10,406 nt of DNA, from NCBI GenBank assembly GCA_003660635.1, contig QMUP01000015.1, forward strand, positions 1 to 10,406, read 5' to 3'. The notes under the pieces were generated by a model, which saw nothing but the letters and a program-made list of their open reading frames with translations, was not told where the DNA came from and ran no database searches. Source of the stretch: Candidatus Wolframiiraptor sp. GTDB taxonomy: Archaea > Thermoproteota > Nitrososphaeria_A > Caldarchaeales > Wolframiiraptoraceae. Made by a program: the position numbers and the translations under genes. Of this stretch, positions 2,416-10,406 are shown piece by piece; position 1 is the stretch's first letter; the number at the start of each line of letters is the position of its first letter.

Positions 2416-3567
2416 ATGATGTTCCGGGGATTTGTGAGGGAAGGAGGAGTGGGAGTTAGAAACTACGTCGCAGTCATCTGCACGGTTGGATGCGCTGCCC
2501 ACGTTGTGAGAAAGATCGTGGAGGCAAATCCGAGAGCAAAAGCGATAATACATCACCAGGGATGTTGCCACGTTCCACCCGAGATTTCTCACGTCGAAAA
2601 AGTATTGATTAACTTGGCGTTGAATCCGAATGTTCACTCGGCGTTGTTCGTGAGCCTCGGATGCGAGGGGGTTTCAGCGGAGAAGGTTGCCGATGAAGTC
2701 TCCAAGTTTAAGGAAGCAGAGGTCGTGAGAATACTCGACGAAGGGACCTCTAAGGCCATTTCAAAGGGTTCGAGGATTGTGGAGAAGATGCTCGTGGAAG
2801 CGGAGAAGATGAAGAGAGAAGAAGTGGCACTCTCAGAACTCAAACTCGCGATAAAATGCGGTGGATCCGACTTCACTTCAGGAATAGTCTCCAACCCGGT
2901 AGCCGGAAAAGTCGCAGATCTCATAATCGATAACGGGGGCACGGTCATCTTCGGCGAAACAACCGAGGTAATCGGCGCAGAGCACATAGTCGCCAGAAGA
3001 GCGGCCAGCGAGGAAGTGGCCCAGAAACTGTATAAGGCCGTTGAGAGCATGGAGCAAAGAGTCATCGCGATGGGCGTTGATATGAGAAAAGGCCAACCAA
3101 CCCCCGGGAATATACGAGGGGGGATAACTACGATAGAGGAGAAATCCATTGGAGCCGTCTGCAAGGCGGGTTCATCAAAGTTAATAGACGTCGTCGACTA
3201 CGGCGACATCGTCAAAGAAAGGGGATTGATATTCATGGACACCCCGGGAAGGGAGCTAGAGGTCTTGACGGGGTTTGCGGCAGGAGGCGCACAGATAACA
3301 TTATTTACGACGGGGCTCGGGGTTCCACAGGGGTATCCCATCATGCCCGTGGTGAAGATCAGTGGAAACCCGGAGACATGTAAGAGATTATCCGAGCACA
3401 TAGATGTTGACCTGGGTAAGGTGTTCTATGGAGAGGAGTCAATAGAGGCCGCGGCGAAACGGGTCTTAAAGGAGATATTGGAAGTCGCTTCATCGAAAAA
3501 GACGAAGGCGGAGCTCCTAGGCTACGAAGACACTGTTGAGATCTATGTTAGGGGGCCGGTGATCTGA
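2416..3567 (+). CDS. UxaA-family lyase large subunit (altronate/galactarate dehydratase-like or sulfolactate sulfo-lyase SuyB-like)
   Basis: A 383-residue protein that aligns from memory with the region of E. coli UxaA beyond its SAF domain. Landmarks in order: 'GVRNYV' at 12-17, 'HQGCCH' at 47-52, 'LGCEG' at 81-85, 'CGGSD' at 148-152 with 'SGI' and 'NP' after it, 'PTPGN' at 228-232, 'GGITTIEEKSIG' at 235-246, and 'FTTGLG' at 297-302. The family uses a metal or iron site to remove water from sugar acids or, in SuyB, sulfite from (2R)-sulfolactate. ATG 2419 is an equally good start. The partner SAF subunit begins one base after this stop codon. The fused arrangement of E. coli is split here, and the order is large before small. 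The upstream TauE/SafE gene favours a sulfite-releasing role, but sequence alone does not decide between dehydratase and sulfo-lyase. Confidence 0.87.
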   Translation: MMFRGFVREGGVGVRNYVAVICTVGCAAHVVRKIVEANPRAKAIIHHQGCCHVPPEISHVEKVLINLALNPNVHSALFVSLGCEGVSAEKVADEVSKFKEAEVVRILDEGTSKAISKGSRIVEKMLVEAEKMKREEVALSELKLAIKCGGSDFTSGIVSNPVAGKVADLIIDNGGTVIFGETTEVIGAEHIVARRAASEEVAQKLYKAVESMEQRVIAMGVDMRKGQPTPGNIRGGITTIEEKSIGAVCKAGSSKLIDVVDYGDIVKERGLIFMDTPGRELEVLTGFAAGGAQITLFTTGLGVPQGYPIMPVVKISGNPETCKRLSEHIDVDLGKVFYGEESIEAAAKRVLKEILEVASSKKTKAELLGYEDTVEIYVRGPVI

Positions 3568-3568
3568 A

Positions 3569-3874
3569 ATGAGCAAAGAAAGGGTCTCCGCGATAGTTGT
3601 TGACAAAAAGGATAACGTGGCAGTCGCATTATCCGACATCAAACGCGGGGATAAGGTGACTATTCGAATAGGTGAGAAAATTGAAGAGCTGGTCGCTAGG
3701 TCGGATATCCCATTCGGCCATAAGCTCGCGATAAGAGAGATCCCAAGAGGTGAGGAGATCATAAAATATGGTGAAGTCATAGGCAGAGCCACAAGGGATA
3801 TAGAGATCGGAGAACACGTCCATGTCCATAACGTCGAGAGCCTCAGGGGCAGAGGAGATCTAAAGAAAGAATAG
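3569..3874 (+). CDS. UxaA/SuyA-like SAF-domain small subunit
   Basis: A 101-residue SAF-domain protein matching the N-terminal segment of UxaA: 'KDNVAVALSDIKRGDKV' near residues 14-30, 'FGHKLAIREIPRGEEIIKYG' at 49-68, and 'HVHVHNVES' at 83-91, followed by 'RGRGD'. The three spaced histidines and the GHK motif are the conserved, probably metal- or substrate-binding, part. In this family the small domain completes the active site of the large subunit, here encoded immediately upstream with one base between stop and start. GGTGA at 3558-3562 lies six bases before the ATG and inside the large-subunit gene, so translation of the two subunits is probably coupled. It is either the small subunit of an altronate-type dehydratase or SuyA of sulfolactate sulfo-lyase. 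The gene converges with the glycosyltransferase gene, only 21 bases apart. Confidence 0.88.
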   Translation: MSKERVSAIVVDKKDNVAVALSDIKRGDKVTIRIGEKIEELVARSDIPFGHKLAIREIPRGEEIIKYGEVIGRATRDIEIGEHVHVHNVESLRGRGDLKKE

Positions 3875-3895: not shown

Positions 3896-5236
3896 TTAGG
3901 TGCGTTTTTCCGCAATAACCCACTTCGCACCCCTTCCAATGTGCCTCGTCTTTTCCCAAAACACATCCTTGAAAACTTCCTGATAGAATGCTCTGATCGC
4001 GGCAAGCGGCATCATGAGATTCATGTAAAAGATCATGTGGGGTAAATACTTGAGGAGCGCCTTTGCGGTGCCCATTTTCTCTAGAACTCCGCCTTGGATC
4101 CACGTATAATAGTAGACTATGTTAAAGAGTAGGGGTAAGAGGGCCCACCAAGGGAAGAGGTTCGCCGTCAGCGTGAAGGGAATTATATCCAAATATTCTA
4201 GAACCCAGTAAACGGTCATCCCGTAGGCCACCCAGTTGAGCAGCACCATTATCGGCGCGCTGAGCATCAAGAATATGGAGAATACTTCAATTAAGCCGAT
4301 CCGCCTGAGAATCGCCGGCCTAAACAACACCTTGAAGTATTTTATCAGGCTCTGTATCCAACCCCTAAACCACCGCGTCCTCTGCCTTAGCCACGCCTTG
4401 AAGGAGGTCGGCGCCTCTTCCCAGTGCCGTGTATCTATTAACACGGTTTTCCTCCGAGATAGGTGGAATCTGATAGCTATCTCAGCGTCTTCCGCCAGGT
4501 TTAGCGGATCCCATCCACCTACTTCGGCTATTAACGATCGCTTGACATAGTTTCCGGTCCCGCCGAGGGGGGTGAAGAACCCCAGCCGAGACCTGCCGTT
4601 AAGCCATATCCTAAACCATCCGGCGTATTCCATCGCGAAGATCTTGGTGATCCAGTTGTCGTTTTCATTACTTATCCTGAGTATTGCTTGAATAGAGTCT
4701 AGGCCGTGGTTCTCGATCGCGGAGGCGACCTTTAGAAATGTGTCGCCCTCCGGGATGTCCTCGACGTCCACGATGCCTATGATGTCTCCTTTACAGATGA
4801 GTATCGAGTCATTAAGGGCGCTGGGCTTGGTTGGAAAATACTCTCTTCTGATCACTGGTATGACGCGGCCGGGGTATAGTTGGGAATACCATATCGCGGT
4901 TCTCTCTCCAACCGGGTCCTCCGTAACTATTACGACCTCCTTATTATCTTCAGGGTATTCAACGTGGTTCAAACATATCTCGATTGTCCTCGAGAGTATC
5001 GGCTCATCCCTAGCGGGAATAATTAATGAAAGTTTTGGAAAACTCTTCGGATTCGTCCCCGGATTAAATGGAGCCTTCAGGCCGACGGCCATTATCACTA
5101 GGTGATAAACGCCCCAAATAAGGTATAATATCGTTAGACCATAGGCTAGAATTATGAAAAATTCCCTTGGAAAGAGTACCAGTAAAACTACGGCCGCTAG
5201 GGACGCCGCAATTGCGGCAATCTTACGTCTTCTCAT
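3896..5236 (-). CDS. Membrane glycosyltransferase family 2, cellulose/hyaluronan synthase-like
   Basis: A 446-residue protein with two N-terminal membrane spans (about 5-22 and 26-52), a cytosolic GT-A catalytic domain, and three to four C-terminal spans (about 314-345, 358-380, 396-418). The GT2 signature is complete: 'LSLIIPARDE' at 69-78, the metal-binding 'DVED' at 157-160, 'GGTGNYVKR' at 225-233, 'AED' with the catalytic-base Asp at about 250, and Q-x-x-R-W as 'QRTRW' at 285-289. Q-x-x-R-W and flanking membrane spans are the marks of processive polysaccharide synthases, which transfer sugars from a nucleotide sugar and pass the chain through the membrane. The first 14 bases overlap the 3' end of the zinc-ribbon gene, which implies translational coupling and a functional link. 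No PilZ-type control domain is visible at the C-terminus. The product is likely an exopolysaccharide or surface glycan; the sugar is unknown. Confidence 0.92.
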   Translation of the reverse strand: MRRRKIAAIAASLAAVVLLVLFPREFFIILAYGLTILYLIWGVYHLVIMAVGLKAPFNPGTNPKSFPKLSLIIPARDEPILSRTIEICLNHVEYPEDNKEVVIVTEDPVGERTAIWYSQLYPGRVIPVIRREYFPTKPSALNDSILICKGDIIGIVDVEDIPEGDTFLKVASAIENHGLDSIQAILRISNENDNWITKIFAMEYAGWFRIWLNGRSRLGFFTPLGGTGNYVKRSLIAEVGGWDPLNLAEDAEIAIRFHLSRRKTVLIDTRHWEEAPTSFKAWLRQRTRWFRGWIQSLIKYFKVLFRPAILRRIGLIEVFSIFLMLSAPIMVLLNWVAYGMTVYWVLEYLDIIPFTLTANLFPWWALLPLLFNIVYYYTWIQGGVLEKMGTAKALLKYLPHMIFYMNLMMPLAAIRAFYQEVFKDVFWEKTRHIGRGAKWVIAEKRT

Positions 5237-6194
5237 GAAGCCTCGCGCCGATGAGGGTTAAGATTTCGTTAACGATCTGATCCATTGAGTTCATTAAATC
5301 CTCGACCTTGAAGACCTTCACTTTCTCCGGGTTAAAGATCTTCTCAAAGTCCGATTTTACATTCCTAGGCAGCACCAATAGCGTTATCGTATCCGAGAGA
5401 TCTACAGCCTTCACGGCGACCCCGAGCAAGTATTTCTCATCGAGGAAGTCCTCCGTAACTATATCGACGATCACGGCCGGCTTAGCGTTGACGTAGAGTG
5501 GGGCTGTATGGGTTATCCCGCTGAGACCCTTAATTCGAGCGAAGGGTTCGGATTCCACGCCGAGAGATGCGAGCCTCTTTCTCAATTCTTCTATCGCGTA
5601 ATAGATCGCGGCGAACTTCTTTACCTCCGGCGATATACGGTATACGGGGTATTTCTCCATATCTAAGGTTTGGATTTTATTTCTATGACCCTTTTGGCAT
5701 TCTACCTCGATTAGAGGGACTTGGAAGACGGAGCCGCATTTCTTACAGGTAAACCCGAAGCCAGGCCTCCCATAATCTATTCCAACCCTGTTCATGGTCT
5801 TTTTGCATTTCGGACATCTATAGACGCCCGGCTCTCGGGTTTCGAATTCCTCCACCGGCCCGATATAGCCGCAGTCATAATGGGCCATAAGCTCTTTCTT
5901 CTCTATATTCATCGAGCCACACTTTGGGCAAAGGAGTAGAGGGTGAAGACAGACCTCGCCGCAGATAGGGCAGACCGGTAGCGAGATCTCATCGGATACC
6001 TCTAGGAAGCCCCTCTCCCTGTAGTATTGAAGCCTTTCCTCAGGTACCTCTATTCCGAAGAGATCATAGGTTATACCGGTTTCCTGCTTTATCTTAGGCT
6101 TGAACTCTACGACCTTGCCTTGGGATAGAGCCTTATAAGCGGATGAAAAGAAGTGAGCATCAAGGATGTTAAAGAAGCCCTTGGTTTTCGACAT
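5223..6194 (-). CDS. Multi-zinc-ribbon protein, TackOD1-like, with uncharacterised C-terminal domain
   Basis: A 323-residue soluble protein. Residues 1-70 form an unassigned N-terminal part. Residues 75-170 hold paired zinc-binding motifs: CPIC at 75-78 with CPKC at 89-92, H105/C108 in 'AHYDCGYIG', CPKC at 127-130 with CKKC at 150-153, and C166/H170. The spacing and the 'H-x-x-CG' between ribbons resemble TackOD1, the output domain described from thaumarchaeal signalling proteins; I call this from memory and could be wrong about the exact family. Residues 185-318 form an alpha/beta domain with strands such as 'PAVIVDIV' and 'TITLLVLP', possibly a nuclease- or receiver-like fold without recognisable catalytic residues. 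It is first in a two-gene unit with a GT2 polysaccharide synthase (14-base overlap) behind a strong TATA box. A regulatory or scaffolding role for that synthase is inference. Confidence 0.8.
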   Translation of the reverse strand: MSKTKGFFNILDAHFFSSAYKALSQGKVVEFKPKIKQETGITYDLFGIEVPEERLQYYRERGFLEVSDEISLPVCPICGEVCLHPLLLCPKCGSMNIEKKELMAHYDCGYIGPVEEFETREPGVYRCPKCKKTMNRVGIDYGRPGFGFTCKKCGSVFQVPLIEVECQKGHRNKIQTLDMEKYPVYRISPEVKKFAAIYYAIEELRKRLASLGVESEPFARIKGLSGITHTAPLYVNAKPAVIVDIVTEDFLDEKYLLGVAVKAVDLSDTITLLVLPRNVKSDFEKIFNPEKVKVFKVEDLMNSMDQIVNEILTLIGARLHEKT

Positions 6195-6290: not shown

Positions 6291-7310
6291 TTAGAGCTGG
6301 CGGTTGATCAGCAGGATTATATCTACGAGCCTGTTTGAGTACCCCCATTCGTTGTCATACCATCCTAGCACTTTTATCAGGTCGCTGCGTTCGCCGAGGG
6401 TGGTTATACTGGCTCCGTCGATTATAACCGAATGCGGGTTACCGATCACGTCTATCGAGACTATTGGGTCCTCCGTGTATTCCATTATCCCCTTAAGCTT
6501 TCCCTCTGCGGCTTTTTTGAATGCCTCCTTAACTTCGTCGACCGAGACCTCCTTTTCCAATAATGTAACAAGGTCGGTGACGGAGCCGTCTGTTACGGGT
6601 ACTCGGAGGGCTATTCCGTGGAGCTTGCCCTTAACCTCGGGGATTACTAGGTGGAGTGCTTTAGCGGCGCCTGTGGTGGTCGGGATTATGGAGGCCGCGG
6701 CAGCCCGGGCCCTCCTCAGATCCTTATGCACTAGGTCTAGGAGCCTCTGATCATTCGTATACGCGTGGACCGTTGTCATGAACCCCTTCTTTATCCCGAA
6801 GTTCTCGAGGAGCACCTTGACCATGGGGGCGAGGCAGTTCGTTGTACATGATGCACCTGAGATTACGTCATGCTTCTTGACGTCAAGCATATCATCATTA
6901 ACGCCTGGCACTATGGTGACATCTGCATCTCCTGAAGGAGCTGAAATCAAGACCTTTTTGACACCGTCCCTGAGGTGCTTTGCGGCGTCGGCTCGAGCTC
7001 TAAACCTTCCGGTTGACTCGATTACCACGTCAACGTCGGCTTTGCCCCATGGAATCTTCGCCGGATCGGGTTCTTGGAAGCCCATCAACTCTTGGCCGTC
7101 GATCTCTATGCCCTTTTCCATCGCCTCTACTTTTCGGCTCCACTTCCTATGAACTGAGTCGTATTTCAAGAGAAAAGCCGTGGTCTTGTTGTCGGCTAAA
7201 TCGTTAAAGGCAACTATCTCGAAACTCTTACCGTATTCCGGGCTCTCAAAGGCGGCGCGCGTGAATAGTCGGCCGATTCTCCCCATACCATTAACGCCTA
7301 TACGCAACAT
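6291..7310 (-). CDS. gap: Glyceraldehyde-3-phosphate dehydrogenase, class I (bacterial/eukaryotic type)
   Basis: A 339-residue protein that converts glyceraldehyde-3-phosphate, NAD+ and phosphate to 1,3-bisphosphoglycerate and NADH. All class I hallmarks are present (numbered from Met at 7310): 'NGMGRIGR' at 7-14 for NAD binding, Asp in 'FNDLAD' that favours NAD over NADP, the catalytic Cys155 in 'SCTTNC', His182 in 'VHAYTNDQ', 'RRARAAAASIIPTTTGAAKA' for phosphate binding, and 'WYDNEWGYS' near the C-terminus. A TTG at 7313 lies directly before the chosen ATG and is less likely. Most archaea use the distantly related class II GAPDH and/or non-phosphorylating enzymes, so this type points to acquisition from bacteria or to a lineage known to carry it. 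It stands alone, divergent from the RHH-nucleotidyltransferase gene and followed by a T-rich terminator. Confidence 0.96.
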   Translation of the reverse strand: MLRIGVNGMGRIGRLFTRAAFESPEYGKSFEIVAFNDLADNKTTAFLLKYDSVHRKWSRKVEAMEKGIEIDGQELMGFQEPDPAKIPWGKADVDVVIESTGRFRARADAAKHLRDGVKKVLISAPSGDADVTIVPGVNDDMLDVKKHDVISGASCTTNCLAPMVKVLLENFGIKKGFMTTVHAYTNDQRLLDLVHKDLRRARAAAASIIPTTTGAAKALHLVIPEVKGKLHGIALRVPVTDGSVTDLVTLLEKEVSVDEVKEAFKKAAEGKLKGIMEYTEDPIVSIDVIGNPHSVIIDGASITTLGERSDLIKVLGWYDNEWGYSNRLVDIILLINRQL

Positions 7311-7431
7311 CAAGAAACTCTAACCTCGGCGTCCTCTTTTAACCATATCCCTTTTTAGACCGACGTTTCCTGGAAATTCGCAGCAATCTTTTTACATAAA
7401 GATTATATGTAGATGAATGGGGGCTATTCCC
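7311..7431. promoter_or_regulatory. Divergent promoter region between gap and the RHH-nucleotidyltransferase gene
   Basis: This short gap should hold two promoters. On the plus strand AGATTATATG (7400-7409) is a good TATA box; 26 bases from its centre lands at about 7430, next to ATG 7432, so that transcript would be leaderless. On the minus strand GTTAAAAG (7343-7336) would place a start near 7313, at the gap start codon. Two small dyads lie here: AATCTTT/AAAGATT (7385-7391 and 7398-7404), which overlaps the plus-strand TATA area, and TTTCCTGGAAA (7366-7376) between the two promoters. Either could be an operator, including an autoregulatory one. Confidence 0.45.
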
Positions 7432-8268
7432 ATGCAGAAACACCGGACGAGCATAGAGTTTCCAGCCGAGCTCTGGGAGGAGCTTACGAGGCGTATCCCT
7501 CCGAGGAAGCGGACGGCGTTCATAGTTGACGCGATTAGGGAGAAGCTGATAAGGGAGTCCATGAGGTGCATAATACTTTGCGGAGGCCCGGGTGTCGGGA
7601 TGGGCCCCTTGACGACGAGTATCCCGAAGCCGATGATGCCCATCGGATATAAGCCGATCGTCGAGCACCTGATCCTAAAGCTCAAGAAACAGGGGATCTA
7701 TAACTTCATTCTAGCGGTTAGCCACCTCGGAGAACATCTCATAAGATATTTTGGAGATGGGAGCTCACTCGGGGTCAAGATAGATTACTCGGTCGAGAAG
7801 GTTCAGCTGGGGACGGCTGGCGCCGTTAAGAACGCTGAGAAGAAGCTGAATGGGACATTTCTCGTAGTCTACGGCGACATACTATTCAACGAACTCGACA
7901 TCCAGGACCTCATCGAGTACCATAAGAAGAAGGGCGGTGTTGCAACCATGGTGCTGGCAAAGGTACAGGACGCCAGTAGATTCGGGTTAGTGTCTATCGA
8001 CGAAGCGGGGAGGGTCATAGCCTTTAGGGAAAAACCGAGGCATCCGGCTCCAGGCCTCGTGAACGCTGGGATCTATGCTTGCGAGCCATCCATCTTCGAC
8101 TACATACCCCAGAAAAGGCCGGTTTCTTTCGAGGAACACGTCTTTCCAGACCTAGCCGATAAGGGGAAGCTCTATGCCTATATCTATGAGGACTATTGGG
8201 TAGACATAGGGGCCCCTGAAGACTATGAAAGGGCATGTAGGGACTTCTTCCGCGGGATCCTGAGGTAA
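7432..8268 (+). CDS. Ribbon-helix-helix domain fused to a degenerate sugar-phosphate nucleotidyltransferase; putative metabolite-sensing regulator
   Basis: A 278-residue fusion. Residues 4-42 form a ribbon-helix-helix (CopG/Arc-type) DNA-binding domain: strand 'HRTSIEFP', helix 'AELWEELTRRI', then 'RKRTAFIVDAIREKLIRE'. Residues 44-275 are a GT-A fold nucleotidyltransferase with 'PKPMMP' at 65-70, 'LGTAGAV' at 126-132, metal-type 'GD' at 148-149, 'FREKP' at 198-202, 'NAGIY' at 211-215 and 'DIGAPEDY' at 258-265. The nucleotide-binding signature, normally G-G-x-G-T-R-[LM]-R-P-L-T, reads 'GGPGVGMGPLT': Thr-Arg is Val-Gly and the second Arg is Gly. Catalysis is therefore doubtful, while ligand binding may persist. 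I chose ATG 7432 over ATG 7417 because the DNA-binding domain starts just after it and the TATA spacing fits. An internal ATG at 7561, with GGGAG upstream, could yield the enzyme domain alone. A palindrome cluster follows the stop codon. Confidence 0.85.
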   Translation: MQKHRTSIEFPAELWEELTRRIPPRKRTAFIVDAIREKLIRESMRCIILCGGPGVGMGPLTTSIPKPMMPIGYKPIVEHLILKLKKQGIYNFILAVSHLGEHLIRYFGDGSSLGVKIDYSVEKVQLGTAGAVKNAEKKLNGTFLVVYGDILFNELDIQDLIEYHKKKGGVATMVLAKVQDASRFGLVSIDEAGRVIAFREKPRHPAPGLVNAGIYACEPSIFDYIPQKRPVSFEEHVFPDLADKGKLYAYIYEDYWVDIGAPEDYERACRDFFRGILR

Positions 8269-8270
8269 TG

Positions 8271-8297
8271 TACTCAAATTTGAGTAATTACTCAAAT
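8271..8297. promoter_or_regulatory. Operator-like cluster: two overlapping perfect palindromes (three ACTCAAAT half-sites)
   Basis: TACTCAAATTTGAGTA (8271-8286) is a perfect 16-base palindrome. ATTTGAGTAATTACTCAAAT (8278-8297) is a perfect 20-base palindrome overlapping it. The result is three half-sites of the form ACTCAAAT in alternating orientation. It sits in the 60-base gap between the RHH-nucleotidyltransferase gene and the ECF transporter gene. AAATCTTAT at its right end (8294-8302) could serve as a TATA box, with a start near 8325, so a protein bound here would block transcription. Short tandem half-sites suit ribbon-helix-helix dimers, and the fused regulator next door is the obvious candidate. 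Confidence 0.68.
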
Positions 8298-8328: not shown

Positions 8329-8994
8329 ATGAGATTGAGGGCCAACCTCATCATTTCTTCTTCGACGTTTCTAGGGGCTCTCGCCGCCTTACTAGCCACG
8401 CTCCCGCTGTATGTGCACTTTCCCATCATACCGTATTTGAGGTTCGAGGCCGCGGAGATCCCGATAGTCTTCGCCTTCCTCATCCTCGGGCCTGAGCCGG
8501 CATTCCTCTCTTCCGTAATCTATTGGATAGTCTTGCTCTTGGTTGGCGAGTTTACGCCGATAGGGCCGACCATGAAATTTGTCGCCGTTTTCACGATGCT
8601 CCTCGGATTATGGCTGGGATTTAGAACGCGTAGAAGCCCTAGGGTTAGCCTCTTCATAGGTTCTTGCTTAGGATGCCTTTTCAGGGTCCTGGCGATGAGC
8701 ATATTCAACTACGTGATCGTGGTAATAATGTTCCCGGAGTTCATCGAGATCGCCGCCGCCAGCATCTCCGCGGTTCTTGGAACGGGGGTTCTATCCTATA
8801 TCCCGGTTCTCGCCGCAGTCTTGGTTTTCACGGCGATCTTCAACGTCTTACACGTCATTATCAGCATAACGCCGGCATATCTACTAGTGCGGTATATCGT
8901 CAGGATAAAGGGCGGTGGGCTCCCCATTATTGGGAAAGCTTGGTACGTTGAGGTCGTCAGGGCTGCTTCGAGGCGATCTCCTCAGCGATCTTAA
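8329..8994 (+). CDS. ECF transporter S component, RibU-like (probable riboflavin/vitamin uptake)
   Basis: A 221-residue membrane protein with about six hydrophobic segments (roughly 8-28, 44-60, 60-73, 82-98, 107-135, 155-190). 'YLRFEAAEIPIVFAFLILGP' at 36-55 is the typical RibU-type pattern of an aromatic/Asp-Glu loop before a long span. 'TPIGPTMKF' (76-84), 'IFNYVIV' (125-131) and 'IFNVLHVII' (170-178) also match the riboflavin-type group. S components bind the vitamin and work with a shared energising module (two ATPases and EcfT), which is not in this window. ATG 8329 has GAGG at 8318-8321, seven bases upstream; the stronger AGGAGG at 8304-8309 serves no good start in frame. The palindrome cluster just upstream suggests repression by the neighbouring RHH fusion. 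Its last 38 bases overlap the FAU-1 gene on the other strand. The substrate is inferred, and other vitamins are possible. Confidence 0.82.
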   Translation: MRLRANLIISSSTFLGALAALLATLPLYVHFPIIPYLRFEAAEIPIVFAFLILGPEPAFLSSVIYWIVLLLVGEFTPIGPTMKFVAVFTMLLGLWLGFRTRRSPRVSLFIGSCLGCLFRVLAMSIFNYVIVVIMFPEFIEIAAASISAVLGTGVLSYIPVLAAVLVFTAIFNVLHVIISITPAYLLVRYIVRIKGGGLPIIGKAWYVEVVRAASRRSPQRS

Positions 8995-9907
8995 GAGCTT
9001 TAATCTTCACTTCCTCTCTAATCCTTCCCTCTTCAAGGGCTTTCTCTAATAATTCGATGTCAACTATCTCGGCCTCTGAGTTCGGTTTCACGACTACGTC
9101 TATCTCTAAATCAAAATAGTGAACATGATCTGGGTAAAGCGAGATCGGCGTCGAAATGTTGTAGTATCGCCCTTTCAGTTCTCCGGAGATGCTGTAGTAG
9201 CTGGTCTTCATCCAAGGTTGAAATCTTGTGACCTCGGTTATGGCGTAATCCCCAGGAGACTTCTCTACCCCCAATCCATCATATACTCCGAACCCCATGA
9301 TTCTCCTCTGAATTCTAGCCTTTCCATCGCCCCTCCATATCACTTTACCTAGACCCAGTGACAAACGTTTACCGTTAGGTTTTATGTGAATTATTTTTAT
9401 CATCGTTCCGAGCCTCGGTGTGATACCGTCCACCTGTTCTCTGAACATCCTCGACATCTCTTCCGCCGGAACCAACCCCCTCTCTACTAAATCCTCGGCG
9501 AAACTCACCATGCTGGATAGACCCTCTCCTCCCGCTCTGCAATAGTGATGATAAGGAACTGTATAGGAGACCCTTGATCTGAGTTCATCTAATTTTAATT
9601 TCGCCTGATTTGGGAATCCTACCTTCGCCCTTCCTAACGGTTCGCAGACGGATAGATGTAGAACGACGAGGTCCTCGAAAAAACTCTGGAGAGTTTTGAC
9701 CAGTTCTTGGACGACCTCAGCAGATCCCCTGATCTCGATGCAATTCCTATCTGAAGGAGAATCGACGATCATGACGTCTGGTTCGTTTTTCATGGTTATT
9801 CCGAATCTCTCGACCTGCGACTTAGTGGGATTCACTATCGTGAAACCCTTTTCTTGAAGGAGACCGATTAAGGCGGTCGAGTATATTCCCCGGATTGAGA
9901 CCTTCAA
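8957..9907 (-). CDS. fau-1: Ribonuclease FAU-1 family protein (DUF402 domain)
   Basis: A 316-residue homologue of the archaeal AU-rich RNA-binding ribonuclease FAU-1, reported in Pyrococcus furiosus and linked to 5S rRNA maturation. The N-terminus 'MKVSIRGIYSTALIGLL' is characteristic, 'VPYHHYCRAGGEGLSSMV' at 117-134 is the conserved central motif, and the DUF402 region runs from about 205 to 290 with 'SYYSISGELKGRYYNISTP' (236-254) and 'YFDLEIDVVVKP' (264-275). The start is TTG 9907: no in-frame ATG lies upstream before a stop, and GGTGG at 9918-9914 gives a Shine-Dalgarno six bases away. It follows the SerRS-like gene on the same strand after a 60-base gap, so both may form a translation-related unit. 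Length fits the single-chain forms of the family. Confidence 0.93.
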   Translation of the reverse strand: MKVSIRGIYSTALIGLLQEKGFTIVNPTKSQVERFGITMKNEPDVMIVDSPSDRNCIEIRGSAEVVQELVKTLQSFFEDLVVLHLSVCEPLGRAKVGFPNQAKLKLDELRSRVSYTVPYHHYCRAGGEGLSSMVSFAEDLVERGLVPAEEMSRMFREQVDGITPRLGTMIKIIHIKPNGKRLSLGLGKVIWRGDGKARIQRRIMGFGVYDGLGVEKSPGDYAITEVTRFQPWMKTSYYSISGELKGRYYNISTPISLYPDHVHYFDLEIDVVVKPNSEAEIVDIELLEKALEEGRIREEVKIKALKIAEEIASKQP

Positions 9908-9967: not shown

Positions 9968-10406
9968 TCAGGTCAGTACTTTGGGAGGACTGGGGAGTTC
10001 ACCTATTATTTCCTTAATCGCCTTGGGCCAATTATCGAATTCAAAGCCATGTCTCGCGAGGAATCCGGCGGCCCACCTACTTAAACCGTGTCCAACGCAT
10101 CCTGTCCATAATTCTCTTTCTCTGGCCTCCTTTATCTTGAAGTTCTTTACATAGAAGTCTCTGTGAACACTTGCCGCGGTTACCTCAAGCCATTCCGCGC
10201 TTTCCCTCGGGCCTCTATAGGGGAGATAGACTTCGATGTCGAGTGTTGGGATCTTGTTTATGTGGGAGATGTCTATCATTCTCTTTGAGGCTTCTTGCGG
10301 TGATAGGTAGAAAGGTGCTCCGGCGACGACCCGCCATTCCATGTCTAAATCCTTGTCCGCTAACTCGATCGTTAGATCTGTGACCTTATTCCTGATCTCG
10401 GTTACC
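9968..10406 (-). CDS. serS: Seryl-tRNA synthetase, type 2-like, C-terminal part (5' cut by window edge)
   Basis: The frame is open from the window edge (about 10405) to the stop at 9968-9970, giving about 145 residues with no fixed start; the Met at 10342 is internal. It matches the end of a class II aminoacyl-tRNA synthetase core. Motif 3-like 'GCVGHGLSRWAAGFLARHG' holds the class-defining Gly-x-Gly-x-x-Arg, and 'ELWTGC' precedes it. 'YLPYRGPRESAEWLEVTAASVHRDFYVKNFKIK' and 'DNWPKAIKEIIG' resemble the atypical, methanogen-type SerRS rather than the common form, which has 'NCxDFQARR' before motif 3. It should charge tRNA-Ser, or be one of the SerRS-like paralogues of unknown role. FAU-1 lies 60 bases downstream. 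The N-terminal tRNA-binding domain and motifs 1 and 2 are outside the window. Confidence 0.8.
   Translation of the reverse strand, partial: VTEIRNKVTDLTIELADKDLDMEWRVVAGAPFYLSPQEASKRMIDISHINKIPTLDIEVYLPYRGPRESAEWLEVTAASVHRDFYVKNFKIKEARERELWTGCVGHGLSRWAAGFLARHGFEFDNWPKAIKEIIGELPSPPKVLT

Follow-up and report, generated by a model that had tools for sequence, protein, structure and literature searches.

The window (the whole stretch of 10,406 nucleotides analyzed here) encodes a protein in which a short N-terminal module resembling the ribbon-helix-helix (RHH) DNA-binding domain is fused to a full-length sugar nucleotidyltransferase domain that lacks the arginine on the triphosphate side of the active site. 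Given the loss of this arginine, the retention of the rest of the active site, the front end that looks like a DNA-binding domain and the central sugar metabolism gene next door, the fusion protein is probably a sugar-sensing gene switch, as far as can be judged from sequence. In its more detailed form, namely, an autoregulated, ligand-sensing one-component transcription regulator that evolved from a sugar-1-phosphate nucleotidyltransferase and is tied to triose-phosphate metabolism, this reading has, in our estimate, a probability of roughly one half. The coordinates of the relevant features are given in Table 1.

Table 1. Features in and around the fusion gene (positions are those of the window)
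Feature	Positions	Strand	Remarks
RHH-like + silenced sugar nucleotidyltransferase gene	7432..8268	+	278 aa; in-frame ATG also at 7417
RHH-like N-terminal module	7441..7557	+	residues 4-42: HRTSIEFP strand-like segment, helices 12-21 and 24-42
GT-A nucleotidyltransferase domain	7570..8238	+	residues 47-269; Pfam PF00483 and Foldseek
Altered loop GGPGVGMGPLT	7582..7614	+	residues 51-61
Gly56 in place of the GTR arginine	7597-7599	+	codon GGG
Gly58 in place of the second Arg	7603-7605	+	codon GGC
Lys66 of PKP	7627..7629	+	kept in 37/37
Asp149 (GD)	7876..7878	+	kept in 37/37
Glu200-Lys201 (EKP)	8029..8034	+	kept in 37/37
Asp258 (DIG)	8203..8205	+	kept in 37/37
gap, bacterial-type glyceraldehyde-3-phosphate dehydrogenase, divergent neighbor	6291..7313	-	Pfam Gp_dh_N/C; candidate target
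Motif a, TACAT-N9-ATGTA, candidate operator	7393..7411	.	gap/regulator intergenic region; ends 20 bp upstream of the start codon
TACTC-N6-GAGTA-N2-TACTC, three half-sites	8271-8293		before the RibU-like ECF S-component gene (8329-8994)

The longest open frame of the fusion gene spans positions 7417-8268 of the forward strand (283 aa); the start at 7432 is favored because most of the close homologs (278-280 aa) begin at the methionine that matches this position. In the encoded protein, Pfam search detects NTP_transferase (residues 47-269, E = 3.7e-45) along with NTP_transf_3, and no other family; among the 25 of 32 NCBIfam matches listed, no model reaches its cut-off. The AlphaFold model (mean pLDDT 92.5) places two helices, 12-21 and 24-42, ahead of the GT-A domain, and its top folds in PDB, identified using Foldseek, are tlr0611, plant VTC1, HddC and human GMPPB, with a TM-score of 0.80 for 8x7s. 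The GT-A fold typical of the PF00483 sugar-phosphate nucleotidyltransferases is thus recovered by both Pfam and Foldseek, and the PKPMMP, LGTAGAV, GD and DIGAPEDY motifs listed in the earlier note are all present. The LGTAG motif and the nearest structural relatives point to a guanylyltransferase as the ancestor of the enzyme domain. The VTC1/GMPPB and HddC guanylyltransferases share the GT-A fold, with 32-37% identity in structural alignments, but lack the N-terminal module; the VTC1 alignment shows an intact GxGTR loop, and those of GMPPB and HddC are presumably intact as well.

The GxGTRxxPxT loop with its catalytic Arg, a hallmark of PF00483, is broken throughout the close clade. In an alignment of the window protein with 120 proteins listed out of the 7332 matches of the homolog search, which are the closest listed relatives and not a random sample, every one of the 37 members of this clade (the window protein and P0002-P0037) has Gly at position 56, and residue 58 is not Arg in 33 of the 37; P0001, which is 99% identical to the window protein, and P0052, which lacks the N-terminus, are left out of the residue counts. 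A start-site or sequence error as the source of the fusion or of the broken loop is ruled out by the presence of Gly56 in all 37 close homologs. Close homologs combining an intact GTR with the lack of the module were sought, and none was found among the 120 proteins listed. The fusion of an RHH-like segment with a full-length nucleotidyltransferase is genuine and conserved, the module being seen in the close homologs.

The residues Lys66, Asp149, Glu200, Lys201 and Asp258 are invariant in all four groups of the alignment, and therefore, only the triphosphate-side arginine is gone. Going by the RmlA-type enzymes, we take Asp149 to be the first metal-binding Asp; Asp258 is presumably the second one, Glu200-Lys201 are assumed to contact the sugar phosphate, and Lys66 is assumed to be a catalytic or ligand-type residue. 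The metal Asp pair, the PKP Lys and the EKP motif, all characteristic of PF00483, are present in 37 of 37 members of the close clade, so, for the catalytic and ligand residues checked, the statement of the earlier note that this Arg was lost and the rest retained is borne out.

Outside the close clade, position 56 is variable among the fused proteins. The 14 more distant ones (P0038-P0051) have Arg in eight cases (P0038, P0039, P0040, P0042, P0043, P0046, P0048 and P0051, all with an intact GTR), Gln in two, Met in two, Lys in one and Thr in one, and four distant RHH fusions (P0062, P0079, P0089 and P0105) have Lys in three cases and Arg in one. All 64 remaining listed relatives have Arg. In 62 of these, the loop starts at residue 3-35, and in the other two, P0081 and P0092, it is preceded by 44-48 extra residues, which by eye bear no likeness to RHH.

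The history of the arginine loss was traced on a tree of 67 rows that was built without the loop or the N-terminus, with branch support given as SH-aLRT. Of the 64 remaining listed relatives, 12 were picked by hand for the tree, and 10 of these are present in it; P0052, P0096 and P0112 are absent because the loop pattern did not match. The tree unites the 51 fused, KHRT-type rows (support 94), within which the Gly56 clade (37 rows, support 99) and its sister group (13 rows, support 97) are separated, with P0051 outside both. Read by eye, the tree implies one loss of Arg for the Gly56 clade and another three among the sister rows (P0041/P0044, P0045 and P0047/P0049/P0050). The loss thus appears to have happened more than once among the fused proteins as a whole, but the count is soft because many forks of the tree are open. 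Because eight of the 14 more distant fused proteins keep Arg, the fusion preceded the loss, and the ancestral protein probably already combined the module with the enzyme. The suggestion that the loss is recent does not hold, given that all 37 sequences of the close clade share Gly56 and the orthologs span four genera. Neither is the loss general, since Arg persists in those eight relatives as well as in the six f39 genomes and G415 discussed below. At this one catalytic site, the fused proteins provide a natural series (Arg, Lys, Gln, Met, Thr, Asn and Gly), along which a presumed change from enzyme to sensor could be followed.

The retained residues bear on an alternative, namely, that the protein is an altered but still active enzyme that also binds DNA, a bifunctional autoregulator similar to PutA in which, for example, Arg199 replaces the lost Arg. 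In its favor, both metal Asp, the PKP Lys and EKP are invariant, fused relatives with an intact loop exist, and Arg199, located beside EKP, is fixed in 37 of 37 members of the Gly56 clade compared with 3 of 14 in the sister group. We nevertheless consider continued activity rather unlikely, given that every one of the 64 remaining relatives listed has Arg56, that this residue disappeared repeatedly in the fused proteins, and that the GxGTR arginine is, as far as is known, essential in the characterized sugar nucleotidyltransferases.

The 45 residues ahead of the enzyme domain follow an RHH-like pattern: a basic, strand-like segment (KHRTSIEFP), helix A, an RKRS/T turn and helix B. In the close clade, with gaps ignored, the mean entropy of HRTSIEFP (positions 4-11) is 0.02 bits, compared with 0.76 for the enzyme domain; the module as a whole (positions 3-42) is, at 0.63, barely better conserved than the enzyme domain, and therefore, only the strand-like part stands out. 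Two proteins deviate at this end: the predicted start of P0036 falls inside the module, unlike in the other close homologs, and the N-terminus of P0051 is shorter and divergent.

Profile searches with the module give faint signals. The only recurrent Pfam match in the N-terminal segments of the close clade is RHH_4, in 4 of 15 (best E = 0.067); in a second set of segments, RHH_4 appears in 1 of 11 (E = 0.094), and the segment of the window protein has no RHH_4 match. No RHH profile match in the close clade is significant, and a genome search with the RHH_4 profile gave no hits in eight genomes. In hhalign comparisons over about 20 residues, the module matches the distant RHH group with P = 0.016 (probability 2.8%) and CopG with P = 0.026 (probability 1.9%), whereas the distant RHH group itself matches CopG with a probability of 84.7%. 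Pfam detects RHH_1 in 3 of the 51 members of set A3 (best E = 4.9e-6), and these three carriers are taken to belong to the distant group of P0062, P0079, P0089 and P0105. The monomer models predict the two helices and no strand, and a Foldseek search with the model of the 45-aa module yielded no match; PDB sequence search, fold search with the short model, PHROGs and tblastn against plasmids likewise did not confirm an RHH. We nonetheless take an RHH domain to be the likely identity of the module.

The earlier impression that the architecture lacks any known precedent has to be narrowed. The same two-part architecture is found in proteins such as P0079, which combines Pfam RHH_1 (PF01402) with NTP_transferase (PF00483), and in another class, 9 of 256 genomes contain a second, separate lineage of related RHH-type fusions. 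The P0079-type proteins differ in having another RHH subtype, 39-41% identity, and Arg or Lys at the loop position.

A full-length ortholog of the window protein (at least 67% identity) is present in 16 of 61 genomes sampled from genus to phylum. All 16 belong to genera g1, g2, g4 and g5 of family f1, including 7 of the 7 other genomes of the genus of the window; among the 61 genomes, none of the six g3 genomes of the same family has one. The gap genes of the other 15 regulator-bearing f1 genomes share 72-87% identity with that of the window. The g3 genomes have a gap gene with 57-58% identity, as if it had been replaced, which is lower than in 14 of the 15 gap-bearing genomes of f2 and f4, two other families of the order. 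The 20 f2/f4 genomes all lack the regulator, and gap in these is 64-74% identical in 14 cases, 55% in G042 and not found in five. Within f1, then, the regulator is absent where gap is more distant, yet similar gap genes occur without the regulator.

The genomic context fits the regulator reading. The gap gene is directly upstream and divergent in 13 of the 16 loci (the window and 15 relatives); in G020, it is two genes away from the regulator, and in G016, it is on another contig, with none within 5.4 kb upstream of the regulator. In G001 (C80; L059, L192), roughly 9 kb of inserted DNA lies between the regulator on one side and motif a and gap on the other, all on the same contig; the genes of this insert are absent from the other 15 fetched stretches, and it is either a mobile insertion or an assembly join. 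The pgk gene lies on the fetched stretch in 10 of the 16 loci, the window not being among these. Farther downstream, a DUF402 protein (8957-9907) is kept in 15 of 16 loci, and its neighbor without a Pfam match (9968-10405) in 11 of 16.

In the second fusion lineage, G067 and G081 have the same-strand gene order gap, pgk, fusion gene, and their fusion proteins have Lys and Asn, respectively, in place of Arg; the upstream regions of gap in these two genomes contain no convincing shared palindrome. That fusions of two lineages lie next to gap-pgk offers the strongest hint as to the target, with the proviso that seven of the nine fusions of the second lineage are not beside gap-pgk. The fusion of G415 keeps Arg and is preceded by a PEP-utilizing synthase. 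In six f39 genomes (L195, L198, L199, L226, L227 and L229), an RHH-type fusion with an intact GTR loop is preceded by a LarA-like gene, not gap, in six of six cases, accompanied, where the contig reaches, by PdxA and a kinase-type gene with sugar-binding and nucleotide-binding domains; the domains were checked in G180 only.

The candidate operator, motif a, was scanned for with the pattern KCATAAANNTTATATGTA, allowing at most one mismatch, in 22 genomes of the family, with 10 matches, compared with four for the reversed pattern. Seven of the 10 are at the regulator promoter (G000, G002, G003, G004, G006, G010 and G013), one is at the stranded promoter of G001, about 106 bp from gap, and two are elsewhere (G010 and G016). 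The six g3 genomes, which lack the regulator, have no match, and the scan of the 22 genomes revealed no wider regulon beyond this promoter. In 8 of the 16 regulator-bearing genomes, motif a is absent at the gene within one mismatch. When the upstream regions were shuffled base by base, none of the 3200 shuffles reached 17 of 18 matching positions, a score attained by 7 of the 16 real regions. G005 and G008 score 16, a value reached by 2 of the 3200 shuffles, and G007 and the g5 loci (G011, G014, G016 and G018) score 14-15, with 118 of the 3200 shuffles reaching 14; the scores of G001 and G020 at the gene are at background. In the g5 loci, the middle of the motif differs and the CAT and ATGTA arms stay. 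Because the consensus was drawn from these same sites, the genome scan is a fairer control than the shuffles. Motif a coincides in part with the place where a TATA box is expected, and it might represent no more than a core promoter.

These observations also bear on a second alternative, that the protein is a pseudoenzyme similar to GMPPA, in which the module serves for oligomerization alone and which allosterically controls a catalytic nucleotidyltransferase rather than DNA. GMPPA, which forms a complex with GMPPB, and the plant KONJAC proteins are silenced sugar nucleotidyltransferase paralogs that presumably sense an NDP-sugar; at the sequence level, the window protein resembles them in that the catalytic residue is lost and the ligand residues are kept. 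Unlike the window protein, they have no DNA-binding part, and their effect is exerted on a partner enzyme. The top folds include GMPPB, from the human GMPPA/GMPPB complex, and VTC1, from the VTC1-KJC2 complex, the genome of the window also encodes a 42% identical nucleotidyltransferase with the loop GYGKRLRPLT that could be such a partner, and the RHH assignment is statistically weak. Control of a partner enzyme still seems improbable to us, considering that HRTSIEFP is far more conserved than the rest of the protein, that the inverted repeat is largely specific to the regulator promoter and that the linkage is to gap.

If the protein is a sugar-sensing regulator, it would dimerize through the RHH-like module, and the dimer would bind TACAT-N9-ATGTA over its own promoter, between the promoters of the regulator and gap. 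The ligand, probably a sugar phosphate or an NDP-sugar (a GDP-mannose-like one, going by the nearest structural relatives), would occupy the silenced pocket and shift the affinity for DNA, such that the output of gluconeogenesis would be reported back to the regulator itself and, more speculatively, to gap-pgk. DNA binding, control of gap-pgk and autoregulation are thus candidate roles. A close precedent is PutA, in which an N-terminal RHH domain is attached to a metabolic enzyme and which represses its own operon. The window protein shares with PutA an RHH-like N-terminus fused to a metabolic enzyme domain, but PutA stays active and has another enzyme fold, whereas here the catalytic Arg is lost; as for an operator in its own promoter, motif a is largely promoter-specific but lies at the TATA position and is missing from half of the loci at the stringency of the scan. 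More broadly, it is possible, although we regard it as a tentative proposal, that RHH-captured sugar nucleotidyltransferases, repeatedly silenced at the triphosphate-binding Arg, constitute a new class of archaeal central-carbon regulators that respond to sugar phosphates or NDP-sugars as the end products of gluconeogenesis and regulate the bacterial-type gap-pgk genes in more than one archaeal lineage. To our knowledge, carbon-status sensing in archaea outside the model lineages is largely open. The fusion family is a candidate that is conserved and whose ligand pocket can be identified; with a short putative operator and a possible target also at hand, every step is testable with purified protein.

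The gene that follows the regulator in 15 of the 16 loci encodes a RibU-like protein (PDB 3p5n, E = 1.5e-6), and the regulator could, in principle, control this riboflavin transporter gene via the TACTC repeats in between. The conserved gene order would fit, as would the matched changes in both arms of the palindrome in G005 and G010. However, ribU-like genes are also preceded by this motif, or by one closely resembling it, in eight genomes without the regulator, namely, G028, G036 and G041 and the g3 genomes G009, G012, G015, G017 and G021 (G019 did not match the pattern, and none was seen in G024). The site is therefore not evidence for the regulator, and control of ribU through it is rejected as highly improbable. 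RbkR is an archaeal one-component regulator that combines a winged HTH with an active CTP-dependent riboflavin kinase; it resembles the fusion protein in joining a DNA-binding domain to a nucleotide-enzyme domain and differs in that neither the winged HTH nor the PF01982 kinase is present in the latter. RbkR-type proteins, which combine an HTH with a CTP-dependent riboflavin kinase, are encoded in 20 of the 22 family genomes by genes separate from the fusion gene; the RbkR-type protein is the likelier binder of the TACTC repeats, which makes this a likely RbkR site. A scan for the corresponding pattern (motif b) gave 17 matches in 12 of the 22 genomes, about half of these being the ribU site and the rest scattered, and 14 for the reversed pattern. 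On the other side of gap, a protein with the thaumarchaeal output domain TackOD1 (5223-6194) adjoins a glycosyltransferase-2 gene (3896-5236), and an altronate/galactarate dehydratase is apparently split into two adjacent genes (2416-3567 and 3569-3874).
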